DNA of 64,000 bases, from NCBI RefSeq assembly GCF_000739875.1, contig NZ_BBJR01000021.1:124001-188000 (forward strand), given 5' to 3'. The translations under genes and the position numbers were made by a program. The stretch comes from Comamonas aquatica NBRC 14918. Its GTDB lineage: Bacteria > Pseudomonadota > Gammaproteobacteria > Burkholderiales > Burkholderiaceae_C. The notes below the pieces were generated by a model. The model was not told the origin of the DNA and did not search any database. It saw nothing but the letters and a program-made list of their open reading frames with translations. Shown here piece by piece: positions 26,610 to 57,475 of the stretch; the stretch's first letter is position 1; each line of letters starts with the position of its first letter.

Positions 26610-27602
26610 TTAGAACGGCGCCTCTTCCGGGGCCGTGTCCACCGGTGCGCTCGCGGCGCCGGTCACCACGCCCTTGCGGCCGGCAGGCACGGCCGTACCC
26701 ACCGCCTCGCCCACGGCGGTGCGGCCTTCGCCGCCCAGGGCTGTGAACAGGTCGGGGATCAGCTTGCTCAGCTCGCCGGTGGCAATCGCCACATCGGTGT
26801 CAAAGCCGCCCTCGTCGCCGGCCTGGTCCAGCACGGCATCCAGCAGCGCAATCTTCTTGACCTGCAGGGCATCGGTCAGCACGAAGCTGACGCGCTCGTC
26901 CCAGGTCATGGCCAGCTTGGTGGGCAGCTTGCCGTGTTCCACGTGTTGCTTGACCTCGTCGATGTCCAGCGGATGGCGGGCATAGCGCACCACGGCCTTG
27001 GACTCGTCGGCGGCCTTGAGTTCGCATTCGCGGTCGATGGAAAAGCCCGCCGGCGCTTCCTGCGTCAGCAGCCAGTGCGCCATCGCCGCCTGGGCGCTGG
27101 TCTGGGTGTCCACCAGGGCCACGCCAAAGCCCTGCAGGCTTTCCACCAGCAGGCTCACCACCTCGTCGGCCTTGCCCTGGGCACCGGTGTCCAGCACCAG
27201 CAGTTGGGCCTGGGGGTCGATCCACACCCACATGCTGGACTGCTTGGTGAAGGCCATGGGCAGCAGATCCAGCTTGGCCTCGTCCTTGAGGTCGCGCTTT
27301 TCCTTCTTGCCCGGCTTGCGGCCAAACTCCAGCTCGATGGCATCGGCCTTTTCCTGCACCTTGCGGTTCAGCACGCTGGCCGGCAGCATCTTGGATTCGC
27401 TCATGAAGCGCAGGATCCACTGTCCGCCCACGCTTTCGGCCAGCAGGCCGTGGGCCTCGCCGCGTGGCGGCACCCAGCCCGACGACTGCTCCTGTGTGGC
27501 ACCACAGGGCTGGAATGGCGCCTTCTGCAGCGCCGCTTCTACCTGCTCCAGCGAGCCCTGCCATTGCGCCGCAATGCGGTACACGATCATGTTCTTGAAC
27601 AC
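26610..27602 (-). CDS. rdgC: Recombination-associated protein RdgC
   Basis: A 330-residue RdgC, a ring-forming DNA-binding protein that restrains RecA and is nucleoid-associated. The family N-terminus FKNMIVYRIA follows a GTG start at 27602 with an AGGAAAAGG ribosome site; the body (PPRGEAHGLLAESVGGQWIL, then GRKPGKKEKRDLKDE) is characteristic. The C-terminal 30 residues are Ala/Gly/Val-rich and variable. RdgC next to the putative origin region is of interest because the protein has been linked to replication-fork and phase-variation functions in Neisseria. Confidence 0.95.
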   Translation of the reverse strand: MFKNMIVYRIAAQWQGSLEQVEAALQKAPFQPCGATQEQSSGWVPPRGEAHGLLAESVGGQWILRFMSESKMLPASVLNRKVQEKADAIELEFGRKPGKKEKRDLKDEAKLDLLPMAFTKQSSMWVWIDPQAQLLVLDTGAQGKADEVVSLLVESLQGFGVALVDTQTSAQAAMAHWLLTQEAPAGFSIDRECELKAADESKAVVRYARHPLDIDEVKQHVEHGKLPTKLAMTWDERVSFVLTDALQVKKIALLDAVLDQAGDEGGFDTDVAIATGELSKLIPDLFTALGGEGRTAVGEAVGTAVPAGRKGVVTGAASAPVDTAPEEAPF

Positions 27603-27677
27603 GCAGTCACCTTTTCCTGAATCTGCATCAAAGTCTGTGACGGGGCCCGGTCTGCGGGCCGTTCCGTCATGAAAATA

Positions 27678-27720
27678 AGAGCTGTCAGCGCCCGTTGTGC
27701 CTGGCTTGGGTGGCAAAAAC
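27678..27720 (+). repeat. Dispersed intergenic repeat, copy B
   Basis: AGAGCTGTCAGCGCCCGTTG followed by a G-rich stretch and CAAAAAC, upstream of rdgC; same family as copy A. Confidence 0.55.
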
Positions 27721-27889
27721 ACTTACAACCACCCACCGCCTGACCGCGGCGCGACAACCCAGCTTTGTATTACTTTACACAGCAGCAGCAAAGCCTCACC
27801 AACGGCTTACACAGAAACCGCACACTTGCAGCCATGCACTGCCGAACCTCTTGGCAGATCCGATGGAAACCACCTCACAGGAGTACACC

Positions 27890-28432
27890 ATGGCCCTCTT
27901 CCAACGTAGCCTGACCGCCGCTGTAGCCGCCGCCGCCCTGGCCGGTGCGTTTGCACTGCCGGCTTCGGCCCAACCCGCCGCCCCCACGGCCGGCCCTGCC
28001 GCCACCGCACCGGCAGCGCGCCACCAGGCGCCCGACTTTGCCAAGCGGCACGCCGAACGCACCGAGCGCATGAAAACCCTTTTGCAACTGCAGCCCAACC
28101 AGCAAGCCGCCTGGGACAAGTATGTGCAGGCCACCACGCCACAGCCCCGCCCCGCTGCGGGCGAGCGCCCCGACCTGCGCAAGCTGACCACCCCCGAGCG
28201 CCTGGACCTGGCCCAGAAGATGCGCAAGGAACACACGGCCCACGCCGAACAGCGTGACCAAGCCACCCGCAGCTTCTACAACAGCCTGAATCCCAGCCAG
28301 CAAAAGGCCTTCGACGAACTGACGGCCCACCGCCCCGGCAAGTTCCACCGTGGCGGCCAGGGCGAGCGCATGGGCCACCAGCCCGGCCACCCCCACGGCC
28401 CCGCCGGCCAACCCATGGGCCGTGGCGCATAA
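27890..28432 (+). CDS. Spy/CpxP-like periplasmic protein with LTxxQ-type motif
   Basis: A 180-residue exported protein. Signal peptide residues 1-27 (AGAFALPASAQ), then a Pro/Ala linker, then an alpha-helical region with MKTLLQLQPNQQAAWDKYVQ and SLNPSQQKAFDEL, the LTxxQ-like repeats of Spy/CpxP family chaperones. The C-terminus is His/Gly-rich (GHQPGHPHGPAGQ), which could bind metals. Likely an envelope-stress or metal-responsive periplasmic protein. CAGGAG precedes the ATG at 27890, and a strong terminator follows the stop. Confidence 0.85.
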   Translation: MALFQRSLTAAVAAAALAGAFALPASAQPAAPTAGPAATAPAARHQAPDFAKRHAERTERMKTLLQLQPNQQAAWDKYVQATTPQPRPAAGERPDLRKLTTPERLDLAQKMRKEHTAHAEQRDQATRSFYNSLNPSQQKAFDELTAHRPGKFHRGGQGERMGHQPGHPHGPAGQPMGRGA

Positions 28433-28451
28433 GCCCCCTCCACTCCCACCC

Positions 28452-28478
28452 AGCAGGTCCCAGGACCTGCTTTTTTTT
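28452..28478 (+). terminator. Terminator after the Spy-like gene
   Basis: AGCAGGTCC (28452-28460) and GGACCTGCT (28463-28471) form a stem followed by eight T residues. Confidence 0.93.
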
Positions 28479-28945
28479 CGCCGGTTGCGCCCCGGACTGC
28501 AAAAGTTTTTTCAGTTGCGCACACCGCACGCGGGCCATGTCCAGGGTGTGCATGGCCTGCAGCACGCCGCTGGTCACCACCGCCGCGACCTCCGGAGGTC
28601 ACGCCCTCCCCACCGGCACGCCACACCCCGGGCCGCCTGCCCGCACGGTCGACCGCGGATTTCGGCAACCTGATAAAACCCAATCAAAACAAGCACTTGC
28701 TGCATCCACTCAGGTTTTTTGGTAACTCCGGGTTTTCCCTGTAATTGGATTACAAGCCCGATATGCTCTCATTTTTGTAACGCGATTACGTGGTGCCACC
28801 AGCCGCTCGCCGCCTTGACCAGTGCCTGTGGATAAACATGGGTAGAAAAAAATAGCAACCTGCTGTTTATCCACAAGCGTTTCCAGTCACTGCAACTTGT
28901 ACCCAAATCTGGTCGTCACCGTCCCTGGGTTCAGACACATGGTTT

Positions 28946-29035
28946 GGGCAGGGACAAGTCCTTGATCTGAAAAAAGTATTTCACCTTATCCACACCCACA
29001 ACCCATCCCTACTATTACTACCAATTAAAAATAGA
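28946..29035 (+). repeat. Origin module copy 1: conserved leader, DnaA box, DnaA-trio run
   Basis: Starts GGGCAGGGACAAGTCCTTGA; DnaA box TTATCCACA at 28986-28994; 14-nt C-rich spacer; trio run CTACTATTACTA at 29009-29020; then AATTAAAAATAG. It is homologous to the module at 29381-29480. Confidence 0.75.
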
Positions 29036-29380
29036 AGACATAGAGATAACTACCGCGCGAAAAAATTCGCGCTTTTTCCGTCGTTGCATTTTTTTCAGTG
29101 TTCCGTTTTTTTCCAGCATCCGGCCTGACGCGGGCGGATGCACTGTTCACAGTTGGGACGATTCTGCGTAAAACACCGTCCATTTCAGTTATTCACATCA
29201 AAAAAAATAGCAACAAGTGACGTATTGATAAGAAAAAACACCAAATAACAAAGTTACATCAGATACAAGCAGACCATGTGGATAAATCGTGTTGAAAAAA
29301 TGAGATATCCACAAAAAAGCACGCCATCGGGAAGTTATCCCTGAAGGCAGTACAGCAGGAACAGGGCCTGCCCCACATGA

Positions 29381-29480
29381 TTGGCAGGGACACAAGTGCT
29401 TGATTTCCGGATGAAAAGCACAGTTGTCCACAATCCCTGGGGATGCTTACTACTACCTACTATCCTTATTAAAAAAAACA
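29381..29480 (+). repeat. Origin module copy 2: conserved leader, DnaA box, DnaA-trio run
   Basis: Starts TTGGCAGGGACACAAGTGCT; box TTGTCCACA at 29424-29432 (one mismatch); 14-nt spacer; trio-like run TTACTACTACCTACTA from 29447, then TCCTTATTA and an A-run. Same order and spacing as copy 1, with diverged sequence. Confidence 0.75.
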
Positions 29481-29871
29481 AAGAACAAGTCAGAGGCAAG
29501 CACTGCAGGAGCAGGATCCCGATCGTCTCCAAAACGTAAGTGCTTGGTGGGACAGACAAAGACCGTCACGTCCAGTGTGCAGGACCACATTTCCGCGCGC
29601 ATGGGCATGAAAATGGTTTTTCAGTCGGTTGCCGCGTTGGGAACGGGACTTATCCTGATCGGATCTTCTGTCCACAGGAAGTTATCCCGGCCTCTGGATA
29701 ACTGGGGCGGTCATGCCACTGCACCGCGCCAAGGGCATTCAAAAAAATTCAATGCTGGTGGTGGGGCCTGCCCAGCGGGGGGCACCCAGGCCCTGCAGCC
29801 TGGGCACAGTGGCTGGCGCACACCCGCAAGCTGCCCTGGTGGGCGAGGCGGCCCGCGGCCACCACAGGCCC
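29481..29871. other. Non-coding tail of the origin-like region
   Basis: Nearly 400 bp with partial DnaA-like sequences (TCTGTCCACAGG near 29668, TCTGGATAACT near 29694) and no gene that I recognise; the base composition returns to GC-rich after about 29720, in the 3' flank of the next gene. Confidence 0.5.
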
Positions 29872-30813
29872 TCAGGCTCGGCGTGGCAGCTTGCGCTGGG
29901 GCATGGACGGGGCACTGGCCAGCATGGCCGCGCTGCGGGCCTGGGCCGCCTGGACCAGCGGGGTGATGAGCTGTGCCTCGGGCAGGTGGGCCCAGTAGTG
30001 GCGGGGCATCTCCCGGCACATGGTGGCCACCTTCAGGCGCGCGGGATTGAAGATGTGGGCGTAATAGGTCAGCCACAGGGCTTCGCCGGCATCGGCGGGC
30101 GGTGCGGCATCGGCACTCGCACCGGGCCCCCAACTGAGCACGCCCGGCCGCCCTGCCAGGGGTTGCAAGGCCTGCTGCGGGGCAATGCCGTGGTCGGCCA
30201 GCGCCGCCACGCTGGGCGCCTGGGGCCACCAGCGCAGGCAGGCCAGGGGCGTCAGGATGGCCCAGCGCATGTTGCTGAAGCGGCCGACAAAGAAGGGGGC
30301 CACGGCATGCACGATGTGGTGCTGGGGCTCGAACCAGGCCACGTGCAGCGGGCCGCTGCCGTCGTGCAGGGCATCGGCCAGGGCCACGGGGCGAAAGCGC
30401 ACGAAGGCATGCATCTGGTGCACCTCCCGGCGCACGGCCTTGCACAGGTACTGCAGGTGCACGCGGTCGGCATCCAGGGGATCGTGGCGCACGCCGGGCG
30501 TGTGCTGCATGCGCCACAGCAGGCGGTACAGCAGGGCAAAGCGCTCGGGGCTGTGGTGCAGCAGCGCGTGCTCGGCCAGCTCCGGCCACCAGCGCGGCAC
30601 GGTCAGCGGGCGCTGCTGCGCTGGCGGCAGATCCTCGCAGGGGGTGACCTGCGGCGTGGGCGTGAACAGGTCGGGGTGCTGGCCGTGGGCCGCTTCGGTC
30701 TGCCATTCCACCAACTGCGGTGGCACCTGCTGCGCCCACAGCCACCTGGCCAGGCGGCGCCAGTGCGCAAAATCGGTGCCGTCGCCGGGCAGGATGAGGT
30801 GCTGGCGGTCCAT
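29872..30813 (-). CDS. TIGR03915/DUF4130 family putative DNA metabolism protein
   Basis: A 313-residue protein of the SAM-gene-associated DUF4130 (TIGR03915) family: FRRLARWLW-like N-terminus, WWPELAEHALLHHSPERFALLYRLLWR, DPLDADRVHLQYLCKAVRREVHQMHAFVRFR and HIFNPARLKVATMCREMPRHYW are family-typical. In other bacteria this domain is fused to a uracil-DNA-glycosylase-like (UdgX) domain or stands next to a radical-SAM gene, as here, where the stop of the radical-SAM gene lies 3 bp upstream of its ATG. No glycosylase domain is attached in this copy. The biochemical function is not known to me; DNA repair or modification is inferred from partners and the SOS operator. Confidence 0.88.
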   Translation of the reverse strand: MDRQHLILPGDGTDFAHWRRLARWLWAQQVPPQLVEWQTEAAHGQHPDLFTPTPQVTPCEDLPPAQQRPLTVPRWWPELAEHALLHHSPERFALLYRLLWRMQHTPGVRHDPLDADRVHLQYLCKAVRREVHQMHAFVRFRPVALADALHDGSGPLHVAWFEPQHHIVHAVAPFFVGRFSNMRWAILTPLACLRWWPQAPSVAALADHGIAPQQALQPLAGRPGVLSWGPGASADAAPPADAGEALWLTYYAHIFNPARLKVATMCREMPRHYWAHLPEAQLITPLVQAAQARSAAMLASAPSMPQRKLPRRA

Positions 30814-35138: not shown

Positions 35139-36038
35139 TGCGGGAATTTCAGACCGGGCAATCCGGCCAAGAAGACTGAAAAATTGTTTTCAATACAGAT
35201 GCAGAGCACCACATGCATCTTTTTCTTTATCAACATCCTGTGCGATATCGGATGTTCTGCTGATTTATTCAGCACCAAAGAGGGTCTGCCAAGCGCATCA
35301 TCAGGCAGATTTCTGCCAACTACTCTGCTGTGGACAATTGATTATAGGTTGTGGATGCTGAACCTGTCGGTGCCAGGGATGCCACCTGAGTCGCACCACA
35401 CGCTGTGGCACAAACCCTGTGGAAAATTTCGAGATGCATGGCATGGAGAGGTTGAAAAAATATTTTCAATCAACACATCCTTGTGCACAGCCTGCTGAAT
35501 GCATGAGGCTGTGGATAAGTAAAAAAGACAGTCCAGGTGGATTGAAAAATCTGTCCACATTTTGGCATGTGGAGTTATCCACAACCTGTGTGCAGATGGA
35601 AGCTGCATGCTGTGGTGCTGGCATACAAACGCACCACACAGAATTGACGGATTCAACGTTGCGGCGCGAGCGCTTGATTTGTTGTAAAAATTATTTTTTG
35701 ACCGTGCGTCTGGTGGCGATGACTTGTAATTTTGTGTATTTTTTTTCAAAAACACCGACAAACATCGCTGATGCACCTGGATGCTTGTGCATTTTTTTAT
35801 GAAAAAAAGATGATGAGATGGGTTTTGTATAAAAAATAACGGCTATGGCACGCAATGCGGCGGACTGAAGCCTGCAGGTGCAATGGCGGCGGCTGTCGAT
35901 GGCGGTGGCGGTGCCCCAGCGCCGAGGTTTCGCAGGGCCCCTTGCCACTGCGGGGCCGGGAGTTGGCGCCGCCTGCGTGGCAGGCCCGGGCGCTACACTG
36001 CTCAGCGCTCCGTTTCCGCTTTTTTTCCACTGATTCCT
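35139..36038. other. 900-bp gene-free AT-rich divergent region with a second DnaA-box cluster
   Basis: Between the leftward DinG-like gene and rightward uppP. Perfect DnaA boxes are at 35510-35518 (reverse) and 35575-35583; a one-mismatch box is at 35329-35337 (TGTGGACAA), with weaker ones (TGTGGATGC near 35350, TGTGGAAAA near 35418, CTGTCCACA near 35551). A/T-rich tracts follow at about 35685-35755 and 35795-35840. No CTA/TTA trio run comparable to the 29-kb region was seen. Gene orientation flips here. It could be a second part of a bipartite origin, a DnaA titration site, or a DnaA-regulated promoter region. Confidence 0.6.
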
Positions 36039-48083: not shown

Positions 48084-48866
48084 CTAGGTACAACAAACGT
48101 AACGCCTCAGATAAGAGACGTTAGTCCGTGGGGGAGTTGGTTCTTGGCTGAAATTATGCGGCAAACAGTCTTGCTTGCCTATACCGTTGGCTTTTACTGG
48201 AGATAGAGCCAAATAGGCACAAAAAAACCTGCCGAGGCAGGTTGAGATTGGGGGGGCAGGTATCAGCGGACTCGCCGTTGTAAAGCATCGCGTAGCTGGC
48301 TGTACTCCGCTTCTCGAAAGCCAACGTATTCTTGGCATAAGACAAGGAAGGAGCGGTCTTGTGGATTCCACATCTTGAAGCCGTTGCCTGCCCTTGGTGA
48401 CGTATAGCACCTCGCGCATCAGCCGCAGCGGCCGCTCGCGCTTCAAGAAGTCGATGGATGTGATGAGCCGCGGGTAGTGGCTCCATGGGTTCACGTGCAG
48501 GCCGCGGCTGCGCCGAAGCTGCTTCATGGCCTCGCTGTCGACGATGCGGAAGTCCAGGCCGAACTTGTCGCGCATCTGCTCGCGCCACTGAATCTGCAGG
48601 CCCGACGGACACACGATGAGCACCGACCGGATACGGTGGCGCAGCATCAGTTCTTGGACCACCAATCCGCTCTCGATGGTCTTGCCCAAACCGACGTCGT
48701 CGGCGATGAGCAGGTTGACCCGAGGCATCTGGATGGCACGGGCCAGCGGGTCGAGCTGGTAGTCCTCGATTTCTATGCCTGCACGGAAGGGGGCCTGTAG
48801 GGTGCTGGTGTCGGTCTGCGACACGGCTCCCCATCGCACTGCATTCAGGAACGCATCAAGTTGCAT
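48084..48866 (-). pseudogene. N-terminal remnant of a DISARM-type SNF2-like helicase (DrmD-like)
   Basis: The first 154 residues (48405-48866) read as the start of a large SNF2 helicase: VRWGAVSQTDTSTLQAPFRA, GIEIEDYQLDPLARAIQMPR, the Walker A LIADDVGLGKTIESGLVVQE, then LIVCPSGLQIQWREQMRDKF and HVNPWSHYPRLITSIDFLKR. This matches what I know of DrmD, the SNF2-like helicase of class 1 DISARM anti-phage systems, rather than RapA/HepA. After LMREVL the similarity ends abruptly and the frame continues in unrelated sequence to 48084. The rest of the helicase (more than 800 residues) and drmA/B/C and the methyltransferase are absent, so this is a dead relic. Confidence 0.72.
48221..48243 (-). terminator. 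Terminator-like hairpin downstream of the helicase remnant
   Basis: AACCTGCC and GGCAGGTT (48226-48233, 48236-48243) around GA, with seven A residues at the left giving a U-tract for leftward transcripts. Confidence 0.8.
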
Positions 48867-49842
48867 ATCAGAAGCCGTAAGGCTTGCCTATATCTCTACT
48901 ACCGTTAACTGAACCGCTTTACGTTGAAGTACATGTGCGACTTTCAAACTAGATAGAAAGCAGTGACGACTAGCAAAGATGATATCTGGTTGATTTTTGC
49001 GAGTTGACTGTGGTCAGCACCGTTCCCCAAAAAATGCCTACTGAGTAGGTCCCAGAGAAAACAAAAAAGCCGCTTTAAGCGGCTTTTTTTTCAGTGTGAC
49101 AAGGATTGATAGGAACTGACTATTCGATTCCTGTACTCATAAAAATCCCAGCTTTTACTTACCAAAATCCCACTTATTACGTACACCTACATGTAGAGAG
49201 CACCATAAGGTGCGAAACAAGCATCATTAAAATCAAAGGGTTACGCAAACTTTTCTTCGGCGGTGCGAAAGATTGTCTTTAAGCATTGCGAAAAAAACCA
49301 AGCGAATTCTTAAGTGCTTGATTTAAAAAATAAAAAAAACAGATGCCACCCACAAAGAGTGGGCGCTGACCTGATTCCGCTTTTTGGACTTGAATAGAGC
49401 ACTTTCGTGTTGAAGTCTGCCCTAAAGTCCTTTTTTAGTCACATTATTTTTTGTTAACCCCCCGGAAGGGGCGTTGAGCGGAAGTTTTAGCGCAGGACTT
49501 CTAGAGTGCTGAATCCCGCAATTCGTGGACAACATGTTTTGTCTAGCTGGACAGAATTCTGAAATTGCATGTGAAATTGGACGGCTGCTAGCGGCCAAGT
49601 GCACCCCCTTGACCGATTTGTCCCCATGCTGACTGCAGTCGTTCCGCTACGAAATACCAGTGATTGCTGATGCTCACAAAGCAGACATTGCACAGAGGCA
49701 ATCTCGGAGTTGAGGTGCTAAGCAGAAGCAAACGACCCAAAGCAGTCTATCTACGAAATGCTAGTCAATTCAGTTGTAGTTTCGTAATTGAGCTTTGCAG
49801 GGCAATCAATACAATCGACTTCATTACAAGCATGGAGTCCAG
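48867..49842. other. 976-bp low-GC region without a recognisable gene
   Basis: Apart from one bidirectional hairpin (49063-49091) I see only short frames with no family resemblance. The base composition is well below that of the chromosome. The stretch 49560-49640 with GGACGGCTGCTAGCGGCCAA is reminiscent of insertion-sequence flanks, but I cannot name one. Confidence 0.5.
49063..49091. terminator. Bidirectional terminator hairpin in the accessory patch
   Basis: AAAAAAGCCGCTT and AAGCGGCTTTTTTTT pair around a single T, with homopolymer runs on both sides. Confidence 0.9.
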
Positions 49843-50145
49843 ATGAAGCTCTTAGCAATTGCCTGTTTAATGTTTAGCTCTGTCGCCTTTGCCCAGTCTG
49901 AAGTAGCTCGAAGCGTTGGTCGAGTAGCTGGGCAGTTTGGTGTGGGTGTTACAGACACTATTCGTGACTCTCAACCACAGTGGGAAACAATACGTGCGAA
50001 GTCGAAAGATGAATGCTTGAAAGAGTCGGGCGGGGTGCTTGATAACGCCTTTGTCCGATGCCGCAATGGCCGTCAGGAATACGTGCAGTACAACAGCAAG
50101 AACGAACGCATGGTTCTAAGAGAGCGCCCGATACCTGTAAATTGA
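49843..50145 (+). CDS. Small secreted protein of unknown function
   Basis: A 100-residue protein with a clear signal peptide (MKLLAIACLMFSSVAFAQ) and a mature part of about 82 residues containing two cysteines (DECLKES, FVRCRNG) that could form a disulfide. ATGGAGTCC lies upstream of ATG 49843 as a ribosome site. Codon use is low-GC like the rest of the accessory patch. I do not recognise the family. Confidence 0.65.
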   Translation: MKLLAIACLMFSSVAFAQSEVARSVGRVAGQFGVGVTDTIRDSQPQWETIRAKSKDECLKESGGVLDNAFVRCRNGRQEYVQYNSKNERMVLRERPIPVN

Positions 50146-50269
50146 CCTGAATCGACCAGTGTTTCCAGAAGCAGTCTGAGAATGTTGGCCCGCTCAGCCC
50201 ATCGGGCCTGCATGCTCATCTAACTGGTGCAGGAATTCGAGGGGACTTCAAGCGTGGTATCCCCGTCAC

Positions 50270-50485
50270 TGTGACAGGGCTGTGGTTAGCGTATGCAGTG
50301 GTCCTGAGGAGATTCGTCGCTCGGTGCGAACTTTCATTAAGTACGGTGTTGACCATCTGAAAATCAACTTGTCTGGTGAGTACATCGCTGGTATTCCCGC
50401 TGAGATGTCGCCATTCGCTGAAGATGAAATTGCCATGCTGGCTCAGGAGGCCAAGCGGTACGGTGTTGATTTCCATGCAATCTGA
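50270..50485 (+). pseudogene. Internal fragment of an amidohydrolase (imidazolonepropionase-like)
   Basis: The frame reads VVSVCSGPEEIRRSVRTFIK, YGVDHLKINLSGEYIAGIPA and EMSPFAEDEIAMLAQEAKRYG, which is the middle of a metal-dependent amidohydrolase (prolidase/imidazolonepropionase-like group, where the next residues would be a VAAHA metal-binding strand). It has no start, no N-terminal metal motif and ends where the IS21-family element begins (about 50486), so it is a fragment left after insertion and deletion. Confidence 0.65.
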
Positions 50486-50536
50486 ACCCACCAATTCCAT
50501 CTCGATCTGACCCACCCTGTTGCGTGAACTTGAAGC

Positions 50537-51334
50537 TCACGTTGTGGATAAGTTCTTGGTGTTCCTTTCCTTTTTAGATTGGGGTTGCTGGGCAGAACTG
50601 TTCTTGAATCGGTAGCTGTCGTTGCCGGTTTCAAGAATATGGCAGTGATGGGTGAGTCGGTCCAGCAGTGCCGTGGTCATCTTTGCGTCCCCGAACACGC
50701 TGGCCCATTCACTGAAGCTCAGGTTGGTGGTGATCACGACGCTGGTGCGTTCGTAGAGTTTGGACAGCAGATGGAACAGAAGTGCCCCGCCAGAGGCACT
50801 GAATGGCAGGTAACCCAGCTCATCCAGAATCACCAGGTCGGCATACGCCAGCCGGTGAGCGAGCTGTCCCGCCTTGCCCTGAGCCTTCTCTTCCTCCAAT
50901 GCGTTGACCAACTCCACCGTTGAGAAGAACCGCACCCTGCGGTGGTGATGTTCAATCGCTTGCACGCCCAGGGCTGTGGCAATGTGGGTCTTACCCGTTC
51001 CCGGTCCGCCCACGAGAACCACGTTGTTGGCATCTTCTAGGAACTCACAGCGGTGCAACTGCCGAACCAAGGCTTCATTGACCTCGCTGTGGCTGAAGTT
51101 GAAGCCCGTCAGGTCTCGATAGGCTGGGAACCTTGCCACCTTGAGCTGATAGGCCACCGAGCGTACCTCCCGTTCGGCAGTCTCGGCCTTGAGCAACTGC
51201 GACAGGATGGGCTGCGCAGCGTCAAACGCTGGGGCCCCTTGTTCAGCCAGTTCATTGACCGCCTGAGCCATCCCATGCATCTTGAGCTCTCGCAACATGA
51301 TGACGATGGCCGCAATAGCTGGGTCATGTCGCAT
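50537..51334 (-). mobile_element. istB: IS21-family helper ATPase IstB
   Basis: A complete 265-residue Ist[21 protein letters not shown] holds Walker [21 protein letters not shown] holds Walker B and the sensor region, and the [17 protein letters not shown] tail is typical of IS21-type IstB. It is the AAA+ partner of the IstA transposase. Only a stub of istA remains upstream, so the element cannot move alone but IstB could serve other copies. The frame ends before AT-rich DNA and the amidohydrolase fragment. Confidence 0.93.
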
Positions 51335-55721: not shown

Positions 55722-57131
55722 TCAGCCTTTGAGCGTTTGCTCCAGCACATGCAATTGCTGGTTCAGCTCGGTCAGCTGCTGGCGCTCGGCGGCAATCTTG
55801 CGCACCGCGTGCAGCACCGTGGTGTGGTCGCGGCCGCCAAACAGCTCGCCGATCTCGGGCAGGCTCTTTTGCGTCAGCTCCTTGGCCAGGTACATGGCGA
55901 TCTGGCGCGGACGGGCAATGCTGGCCGGGCGCTTCTTGCTGTACATGTCCGCGACCTTGATCTTGTAATAGTCGGCCACGGTCTTCTGGATGTTCTCCAC
56001 GCTGATCTGGCGGTTCTGGATGCTCAGCAGATCGCGCAGCGCCTCGCGCGCCAGCTGGATGGAGACTTCCTTCTGGTTGAAGCGCGAGTACGCCAGGATC
56101 TTGCGCAGCGCGCCTTCCAGCTCACGCACGTTGGAGCGCACGTTCTTGGCCACGAAGAAGGCGACTTCCTCGGGCATCTCGGCGTTCTCGGCGCGGGCCT
56201 TGTTGATCAGGATGGCCACGCGCATTTCCAGCTCGGGTGGCTCGATGGCCACCGTGAGGCCGGAGTCGAAGCGCGAGACCAGGCGCTCGTGGATGTTGGC
56301 CAGACCCTTGGGGTAGGTGTCGGACGTCATCACGATGTGGCTCTTCTTGGCCAGCAGGGCTTCGAAGGCGTTGAAGAACTCTTCCTGCGTGCGGTCCTTG
56401 TTGGCGAAGAACTGGACGTCATCGATCAACAAAAGGTCGAGCGAGTGGTAGCGTTCCTTGAACTCGTCAAAGGTGCGGCGCTGGTATGCCTTGACCACAT
56501 CTGAAACAAATTGTTCAGCGTGGATGTAGAGAACTTTGGCGTCGGGCCGGTCTTTGAGCAACTGGTTGCCCACAGCGTGCACCAGGTGGGTCTTACCCAG
56601 ACCCACACCGCCATAGATGAACAGCGGGTTGTACAGGTGGCCGGGCGAGGCGGCGACGTGCATGGCGGCCGAGCGGGCCATGCGGTTGGCCGTGCCTTCC
56701 ACCAGCGTCTCGAACGTCAGGGCGGAATTGAGGCGGTTGCGGAAGACGGGCGAAGCCGGTTCCTCCGCGCTGGGGCTGGAGGTGGGCGCTGCGCTGGGGC
56801 TGTCGGAGGGCGTGTTGCGCTCGCCGGCATAGGGGCGAACATACGTGCGCACCACGCTTTCGCGCTGAGCGAGTGCCAACTCCAGTGCCACGGGTTGACC
56901 GTACAGGTCTTCCAGCAGGCCCGCGATGCGCGCGGCGTACTGGGCGCGGATCCAGTCCAGCTTGAAGCGGTTGGCGACATACACCGTCACCTTGGAGAAA
57001 TCCTCCGCCACGTGCGCGGTCAGGGGCTTGATCCAGGTGTTGAACTGTTGCTCGGGCAGGTCCTGGCCGAGCTGCTCGACGCAGGCCAGCCACAGGCCCA
57101 GGCCGGCGTCGTTGGTGGGTTCCTCGGTCAT
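55722..57131 (-). CDS. dnaA: Chromosomal replication initiator protein DnaA
   Basis: A 469-residue DnaA: domain I (1-80), a Pro/Ser-rich linker (about 100-125, [16 protein letters not shown]), the AAA+ domain III (Walker [14 protein letters not shown], Walker [11 protein letters not shown]) and the C-terminal DNA-binding domain with the signature [15 protein letters not shown] that reads DnaA boxes. Its promoter region contains one perfect DnaA box (57200-57208) and one near box (57150-57158), consistent with autoregulation. Confidence 0.98.
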
Positions 57132-57475
57132 TTCAATCGGAGCGCTTTTTGTGGATAGGAGGAACGGTGATGGGGCTGTGATTGTAGCTTTTCAAACGGT
57201 TATCCACAAACACGGACGACTTTTGCACCGGTCTGGTGCGGGGGCGTATTTTGGACCATCTTTAGAGGGTCATTGCAAGAGGTGGCTAACACTGAGATAA
57301 TTTTGGGTTTCCCTGAATGTGTTCAGGGTGATAAGCCCCGCGCGAAGCTTTTATTTGCGGCCGCTTGCCCCTGGCAGGCGCCTTGCAGATGTGCTTGGCT
57401 GGGGGAATTTGGGCAGTGTGCATTCATGAGGAATGCATGGGCCAGTAAAAAACTGAACCTTCTCAAGGAACGAAC
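57132..57475. other. dnaA-rpmH divergent promoter region
   Basis: In many bacteria oriC lies here. In this window it is only 344 bp, not strikingly AT-rich, and holds just two DnaA boxes: TGTGGATAG at 57150-57158 and TTATCCACA at 57200-57208. I read it as an autoregulated dnaA promoter plus the rpmH promoter rather than a full origin. Confidence 0.7.

Follow-up and report, generated by a model that had tools for sequence, protein, structure and literature searches.

A probable chromosomal replication origin of Comamonas with two candidate unwinding units in direct repeat

The window, by which we mean the whole 64-kb stretch of DNA that was analyzed, contains an intergenic gap whose segment at 28.8–29.5 kb is very probably the chromosomal oriC, on the basis of strand asymmetry, anatomy and conservation. 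The gap carries two units in direct repeat, and their anatomy, conservation and predicted duplex stability support the presence of two unwinding elements. We consider it likely that both units are functional opening elements and that unit 2 is the dominant one. A sequence-only reading had proposed an oriC with two unwinding elements at this place and had called the arrangement unusual. Two elements are indeed supported on the grounds just named, but the twin layout, judged by sequence comparison, is the norm in the genus and is also seen in further genera of the family and of the order.

Anatomy and conservation of the two units

The gap is 1.44 kb long, between an LTXXQ gene that ends at 28432 and a DUF4130 gene that runs from 29872 on the − strand (Table 1). 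It contains four perfect TTATCCACA DnaA boxes and three near ones, and all seven span 606 bp, in agreement with the sequence-only reading, which had counted them in about 0.6 kb of AT-rich, gene-free DNA; the gap shows the DnaA-box cluster in A/T-rich intergenic DNA by which an oriC is recognized. Between the units there is no ORF of at least 150 aa, while a mechanical ORF (29424–29966) overlaps unit 2, and the Rfam and tRNA scans of the window returned no matches. When one mismatch is allowed, TTATNCACA has 26 matches in the window, compared to a shuffle mean of 14.2, and 26 was reached in 1 of 100 shuffles. The composite pattern box-N13-15-YTAYTAYTA, also at up to one mismatch, is found in the 64-kb window at 28986 and 29424 only, both on the + strand. 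The strict box-spacer-trio pattern had no match in 5000 Markov copies of the gap and, read backwards, none across 53 genomes of the genus.

Table 1. Coordinates of the gap, its two units and the marker genes, in window positions; offsets are from the BUS box of the same unit.
Feature	Position	Strand	Remark
Intergenic region very probably bearing oriC, LTXXQ gene (+) to DUF4130 gene (−)	28433..29871		contig skew minimum at 29535
rdgC, left neighbor, synteny marker	26610..27722	−	Pfam RdgC E 9e-109
Unit 1 upstream DnaA box, −159	28827..28835	−	perfect; offset kept in 37/40 genomes
Unit 1 upstream DnaA box, −119	28867..28875	+	perfect; offset kept in 37/40 genomes
Unit 1 CACATGGTT element, −50	28936..28944	+	conserved
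Unit 1 IHF-type motif CAAGTCCTTGATC, −31	28955..28967	+	one mismatch to YAANNNNTTGATW; ≤1 mismatch at −31 in 39/40 genomes
Unit 1 BUS DnaA box TTATCCACA	28986..28994	+	perfect
Unit 1 spacer, 14 nt	28995..29008	+	length kept, sequence free
Unit 1 DnaA-trios (CTACTATTACTA...) and A/T-rich tail	29009..29035	+	
Inter-unit DnaA box TTATTCACA in A/T-rich stretch	29189..29197	+	near; moderately conserved
Unit 2 upstream DnaA box, −147	29277..29285	−	perfect; offset kept in 36/40 genomes
Unit 2 upstream DnaA box ATATCCACA, −119	29305..29313	+	near; offset kept in 36/40 genomes
Unit 2 CACATGATT element, −50	29374..29382	+	
Unit 2 IHF-type motif CAAGTGCTTGATT, −31	29393..29405	+	perfect; ≤1 mismatch at −31 in 21/40 genomes
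Unit 2 BUS DnaA box TTGTCCACA	29424..29432	+	near; TTATCCACA in 27/40 genomes
Unit 2 spacer, 14 nt	29433..29446	+	
Unit 2 DnaA-trios (TTACTACTACCTACTA) and A/T-rich tail	29447..29480	+	
dnaA, initiator gene	55722..57131	−	~26 kb from unit 2

Each unit covers about 200 bp, and the two lie 438 bp apart on the same strand. Their parts are an inverted DnaA-box pair, an IHF-type motif (consensus as in PMC10380432), a DnaA box, a 14-nt spacer, about four to five DnaA-trios and a low-stability tail. A BUS has been described as a DnaA box, a spacer within 16 nt, at least three 3′-NAN-5′ trios (mostly 3′-GAT-5′) and an A/T-rich tail (PMC8287927, PMC6669920), and both units contain a box, a spacer of at most 16 nt and at least three trios. 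When the 50-mers of the window are ranked from the least stable upwards by nearest-neighbor energies, the unit-1 tail (29004–29053) comes second and the unit-2 tail (29446–29495) third. Among 100-mers the inter-unit stretch at 29169–29268 is least stable, the unit-1 tail is second and the unit-2 tail only tenth. The origin also contains an exact 14-nt direct repeat, AAAAAAATAGCAAC, at 28846–28859 and 29201–29214, whose second copy is moderately conserved in relatives.

The sequence-only reading had described two diverged modules that share a leader, a box, an identical 14-nt spacer and trios. The box-spacer-trio part was recovered at both places. The spacers agree in length but differ in sequence (CCCACAACCCATCC versus ATCCCTGGGGATGC), and the GGCAGGGACA leader, though present twice here (28947–28956 and 29383–29392), is not conserved in relatives and was rejected as a shared element; the leader that is conserved consists of CACATG-N-TT, located at −50, plus CAAGTnnTTGATtT. 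The repeat finder did not report the two modules as one family because their divergence is too large.

The same reading had proposed looking for the modules in close relatives. Three genomes of the genus have modules identical to those of named loci (G033 to Comamonas jiangduensis L037, G066 to C. kerstersii L036 and G065 to Comamonas sp. NoAH L034), which points to Comamonas in the broad GTDB sense. Of 53 genomes in the genus, 34 contain the strict pattern two times, 8 contain it once and 11 lack it. With a looser reading and the unit model described below, which add G001, G004, G022, G032, G070, G012, G027 and G024, both units are present in 42 of the 53 genomes. A single trio-bearing module was found in nine (G007, G008, G011, G014, G018, G020, G031, G067 and G068), and in two the module search gave no location (G005 and G074, each 85% complete). 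The single-module verdicts rest on loci of about 3 kb, or 260 kb for G031, together with the genome-wide strict pattern, and the genomes are related, so that none of these counts are independent.

The units are on the same strand and their spacing is 417–439 bp in 37 of 40 measured genomes (428–430 bp in 23, 437–439 in 8, 417–426 in 6 and 367–392 in the last 3). We considered a helical phasing of this spacing, which clusters at 417–419, 428–430 and 437–439 bp, but the values 367, 392 and 424 do not fit; for a period of 10.5, R is 0.72 over the 40 genomes and 0.41 over the 13 distinct spacing values, and phasing is not claimed because the genomes are related. The spacer between box and trios is 14 nt long; exceptions, with 13–16 nt, are G012, G027, the G031 group and, in G024, the weak unit 2. 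Its length thus hardly varies, while its sequence shows no more conservation than the flank that precedes the box (mean pairwise identities in units 1 and 2, respectively: spacer, 0.44 and 0.37; flank, 0.42 and 0.40; trios, 0.84 and 0.76). Within one genome the two units are on average 53% identical in register, compared to 28% (sd 4.5) when shuffled. A BLAST search with the whole gap found matches in 17 of 61 genomes, our own included, and these were mostly short pieces.

The two units differ in the quality of their predicted protein sites. An IHF-type motif with at most one mismatch is found at −31 far more often than in any-position shuffles (5–7%; counts in Table 1), and the motif of unit 2 has at least two mismatches there in 19 of the 40 genomes. 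When the two units of a genome are compared, the IHF match of unit 1 is the better one in 28 of 40 cases, with 10 ties, while the better DnaA box belongs to unit 2 in 16 and to unit 1 in 3, with 21 ties; the BUS box is perfect in 14 of 40 genomes for unit 1 and in 27 of 40 for unit 2. These preferences hint at a division of labor, with the better IHF match in unit 1 and the better box in unit 2.

Proposed working of the two units

In the mechanism that we propose, each unit would be a complete opening device, composed of an inverted box pair, a weak half-site (CACA), a site at which IHF bends the DNA, a box, a spacer, trios and an A/T stretch. DnaA would load onto the box of the unit, and IHF would bend the DNA so that upstream DnaA is brought near. 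DnaA would then spread from the box to the trio strand, the duplex would open at the A/T tail and the helicase would be loaded. We infer the binding of DnaA and IHF, unwinding by both units in vivo and helicase loading. Two units with the same direction could create two bubbles that merge, or they could act as a main site (unit 2) and a conditional site (unit 1).

The best solved relative of the DnaA encoded here is the B. subtilis DnaA structure 8btg. The residues that contact the trios (PMC10721633; I190 from PMC8287927) agree only in part with those of B. subtilis: as we read the alignment, E183 and E228 are kept, while N187 is replaced by S, I190 by V and R202 by K. An IHF-alpha-like gene is present, with a score of 119.5 bits that is just below the cut-off of 120.25.

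Unit 2 is the likelier main start, because genomes in which unit 1 has lost its trios retain the unit-2 type, because the DnaA box of unit 2 is more often the better of the two and because the mean skew minimum falls at this unit. Unit 1, whose IHF site is more often the better one, probably provides an additional or conditional place of opening, or makes the bubble larger. More tentatively, it is possible that Comamonas and related Burkholderiales have multi-bubble origins, in which complete IHF-DnaA-trio units, two per origin or three in some genomes, would each open DNA, cooperating or alternating. If so, genomes whose units are 11–13 kb apart would carry two separable natural origins per chromosome.

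A different and rather unlikely arrangement is that unit 2 alone opens the DNA, while unit 1 is a docking half for DnaA and IHF, as in bipartite origins, with trios that are dispensable or act as a low-affinity brake. Such an arrangement would fit the G031 group of six genomes, where the boxes of unit 1 and a partial model match are kept and the trios are absent (in G031 itself, no second trio-bearing unit lies within a 260-kb contiguous stretch). It would also fit the single-module genomes, eight of nine of which have by eye retained the unit-2 type (G011 is ambiguous), the position of the mean skew minimum at unit 2 and the weaker DnaA box of unit 1. However, unit 1 has its trios in 42 of the 51 genomes where modules were located, nearly always behind a 14-nt spacer, and these trios are better conserved than those of unit 2, whereas a pure docking half would have no need of them.

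It is far less probable that unit 1 is the remnant of a duplication, in decay and without a present role. The absence of its trios in one clade and the low average identity of the two units within a genome would agree with decay, but the units form conserved islands in DNA that is otherwise poorly alignable, the registers at −159, −119, −31, 0 and +23 are fixed in most genomes, the distance between the units changes by about 20 bp at most in 37 of 40 genomes and four genomes of genus g41 keep two units that are 11–13 kb apart.

The origins described in the cited papers have a single unwinding element. If both units are opening elements, a twin-unit origin that recurs across Burkholderiales would let one ask why one opening site is needed, whether two sites can fire per chromosome and how the cell counts them. 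The constraint on the ~100-bp element can be read from many natural variants, and the genomes with a trio-less unit 1 are natural controls.

Strand asymmetry and the position of the origin

The cumulative GC skew of the 189-kb contig drops over about 150 kb with small reversals and turns at its minimum, window position 29535. Because the genome is a draft of 103 contigs, this curve covers the contig and not the whole chromosome. The sequence-only reading had proposed this comparison for the whole chromosome, in which a minimum near 35 kb, or between dnaA and rpmH, would have spoken for another site, and its placement of oriC agrees with the curve. In all of 21 twin-module genomes of the genus (our own and 20 picked among those with enough flank), the lowest skew within 8 kb is reached −626 to +241 bp from the unit-2 box, and the mean profile is lowest at +66 bp. 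The oriC reading is drawn from the contig minimum and from these 21 minima near unit 2.

Longer skew curves are available for two relatives with a distant dnaA. In G022 (dnaA at a distance of 82 kb), a stretch of 160 kb has its minimum at 251284, about 230 bp beyond the unit-2 box. In G031 (dnaA at 177 kb), the curve over 260 kb is lowest at 4406635, with a value of −2308, about 190 bp beyond the box of the single trio-bearing module; the skew locates this origin only roughly, because a second low 40 kb further (4446938, −2306) is practically as deep. Samples taken far apart show opposite skew signs on the two arms of both genomes, with one G031 sample near zero. Outside the genus, a local minimum lies near the unit in some stretches of 6–20 kb, often several kb off, and such local minima of short stretches are not counted as proof.

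Origins adjacent to dnaA are common, and the region upstream of dnaA has boxes at 57150 (−) and 57200 (+). Nonetheless, the notion that the true origin is at dnaA/rpmH and that the segment at 28.8–29.5 kb is a DnaA-titration or regulatory cluster is extremely improbable: the small skew dips within about 5–25 kb of dnaA in G031 and G022 (−753 and about −400) are far shallower than the lows at their units (−2308 and −1940), the cumulative skew of our contig is −3519 at dnaA versus −4216 at the gap, and the box-spacer-trio pattern occurs nowhere else in the window.

The DnaA-box clusters upstream of dnaA and at 35.2–35.6 kb were both rejected as origins, as they have neither the box-spacer-trio pattern nor a skew minimum. 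The second of these (35227–35583, between dinG and a uppP-like ORF) has five boxes at up to one mismatch to TTATCCACA, two of them perfect, and trios are absent from it; it is possibly a DnaA-titration or reactivation site. Just past it, at 35790–35839, is the least stable 50-bp stretch of the window. Clusters of five or six boxes lie about 3–8 kb from the origin in 8 of the 20-kb stretches from 20 relatives.

The distance between dnaA and the origin differs greatly among genomes of the genus: it is about 82 kb in G022, 177 kb in G031 and 186 kb in G018, and on the 4.21-Mb contig of G030 dnaA is found at 0.6 kb and the origin at 4.09 Mb. Beside gyrB, a low-GC segment (48084–51334) that includes an IS21-type IstB gene (50537–51334) and a short ORF (48084–48866), helicase-like by eye, is a probable mobile-element remnant.

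Known origins and occurrence beyond the genus

We built a model of the unit (model R1, here the unit model) with 98 positions from 54 training rows of this family, E. coli excluded. In our own genome it matches just the two units (E-values of 6e-16 and 1.9e-13, both units being among the training rows), and the next match has an E-value of 0.16. It also matches E. coli oriC, with an E-value of 4.6e-4 in 436 kb. The left half of E. coli oriC is arranged as DUE-R1-IHF site-R5M, and E. coli oriC has one such core. The CACATGGTT element of unit 1 presumably sits where E. coli has R5M. The alignment to E. coli oriC is gapless over model positions 3–75, which comprise the CACA, the IHF site, R1 and the next 14 nt, and it stops where the trios start; the best IHF match of E. 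coli oriC begins 31 bp before R1, with two mismatches. Based on this gapless alignment and on the shared IHF register at −31, the unit looks like an E. coli DUE-R1-IHF core to which strong Bacillus-type trios have been added.

The Comamonas units share with E. coli oriC an IHF-type motif at −31 before an R1-like box, and this motif is stronger in unit 1 (39/40) than in unit 2 (21/40). Unlike E. coli oriC, the Comamonas origin has a second core, strong trios in both cores and inverted boxes further upstream, at −119 and −147/−159; the BUS score of E. coli is relatively weak (PMC8287927), and an IHF-delivered strand capture has been proposed for it (PMC6669920). Like the B. subtilis BUS, each unit has a DnaA box, a spacer, trios and an A/T-rich tail, but here there are two complete copies in direct repeat, each with an IHF-type motif at −31, and the distance from box to trios is 14 nt compared to a published peak of 10–13. 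Box- and trio-dependent opening has been shown in vitro for the BUS origins of several species, and the search program of the published survey almost always narrows its hits to a single candidate per genome, so that a second copy would go unreported (PMC8287927). The unit would unite in one ~100-bp element two models that are usually contrasted, the DnaA-trio filament of Bacillus and the IHF-assisted strand recruitment of E. coli.

The bipartite origins of B. subtilis and H. pylori likewise consist of two DnaA-box clusters that form one origin, with the unwinding region in one half only (PMC6669920, PMC4285127). In Comamonas, by contrast, both halves carry box, spacer and trios together with a low-stability stretch. 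Bipartite origins of this type also have a gene between their halves, whereas the DNA between the two units is gene-free in our own genome. In the open-licence literature, we found no account of two unwinding elements in one bacterial origin.

Ralstonia pickettii 12D belongs to the same order as Comamonas. It is included in the Gao 2015 list of putative double origins, which draws on box clusters, indicator genes and skew switches and whose table, in the available text, does not contain Comamonas (PMC4403523). Those chromosomes also have more than one origin-like region, but the Comamonas twin units differ in being defined by unwinding units. The use of two functional origins by a single bacterial chromosome was, according to that paper, not supported by any evidence at its date (PMC4403523), and a later case in Vibrio cholerae is mentioned (PMC10225481).

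Within the family, 397 genomes were scanned for a pattern with a more stringent box and a gap of 11–16 nt. The pattern matched 53 genomes, with 344 lacking a match, and by eye 18 of the 53 have at least two same-strand hits on one contig and none has an opposite pair on one contig. The pattern misses weaker units: G094, G139, G154 and G158 are matched by the unit model only. Of 20 family loci, a chosen set that gives no rate (14 had at least two strict hits on one contig, the other six a single hit), 17 contain either two or three units on the same strand, about 0.3–13 kb apart, including three of the six one-hit loci. The four genomes of genus g41 (L203–L206) have two same-strand units 11–13 kb apart and may be better test cases for double origins than the Gao 2015 list. 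In these four, the local skew minimum of the stretch is 0.8–2.7 kb past the second unit. ORFs recognized by eye show an rdgC-like ORF near a unit in L203, L211 and L217: in L203 the second unit adjoins rdgC-like and LTXXQ-like ORFs, as in our own genome, and in L217 rdgC-like and SpmA/B-like ORFs lie between the units.

At the level of the order, the unit model matches 92 of 250 genomes, and in 20 of them two or three copies were counted by eye on one strand within 10 kb (G000, G002, G006, G043, G094, G155, G470, G495, G515, G528, G563, G577, G591, G617, G628, G637, G640, G661, G662 and G683). For 12 of these genomes, the matches of all copies extend over three or more trios. In the other eight (G470, G515, G528, G563, G577, G628, G637 and G661), the match of at least one copy ends before model position 84, so that this copy may lack trios. 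Opposite-strand pairs within 10 kb were found in G550, G668 and G674. In a sample of the class, 74 of 281 genomes match, 71 of them outside our own family; outside the family, G704 alone has a same-strand pair (294 bp apart) and G913 alone an opposite pair, and weak second copies elsewhere would escape the model because it was trained on our own family.

We also tried to assign orthology to unit 1 and unit 2 across genera and rejected the assignment, as identity to the Comamonas sets gives no sorting and both units of one genus often fall on the same side; the identity test leaves ancient duplication, recurrent duplication and concerted evolution unseparated. The 98-position model may help to locate origins in Burkholderiales where box counts are ambiguous, such as chromosome 1 of B. 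cenocepacia, whose origin site was left uncertain by box counts (PMC4948915). In one genus of another family (L244, L245 and L246), three unit matches stand in tandem, about 0.37–0.78 kb apart.
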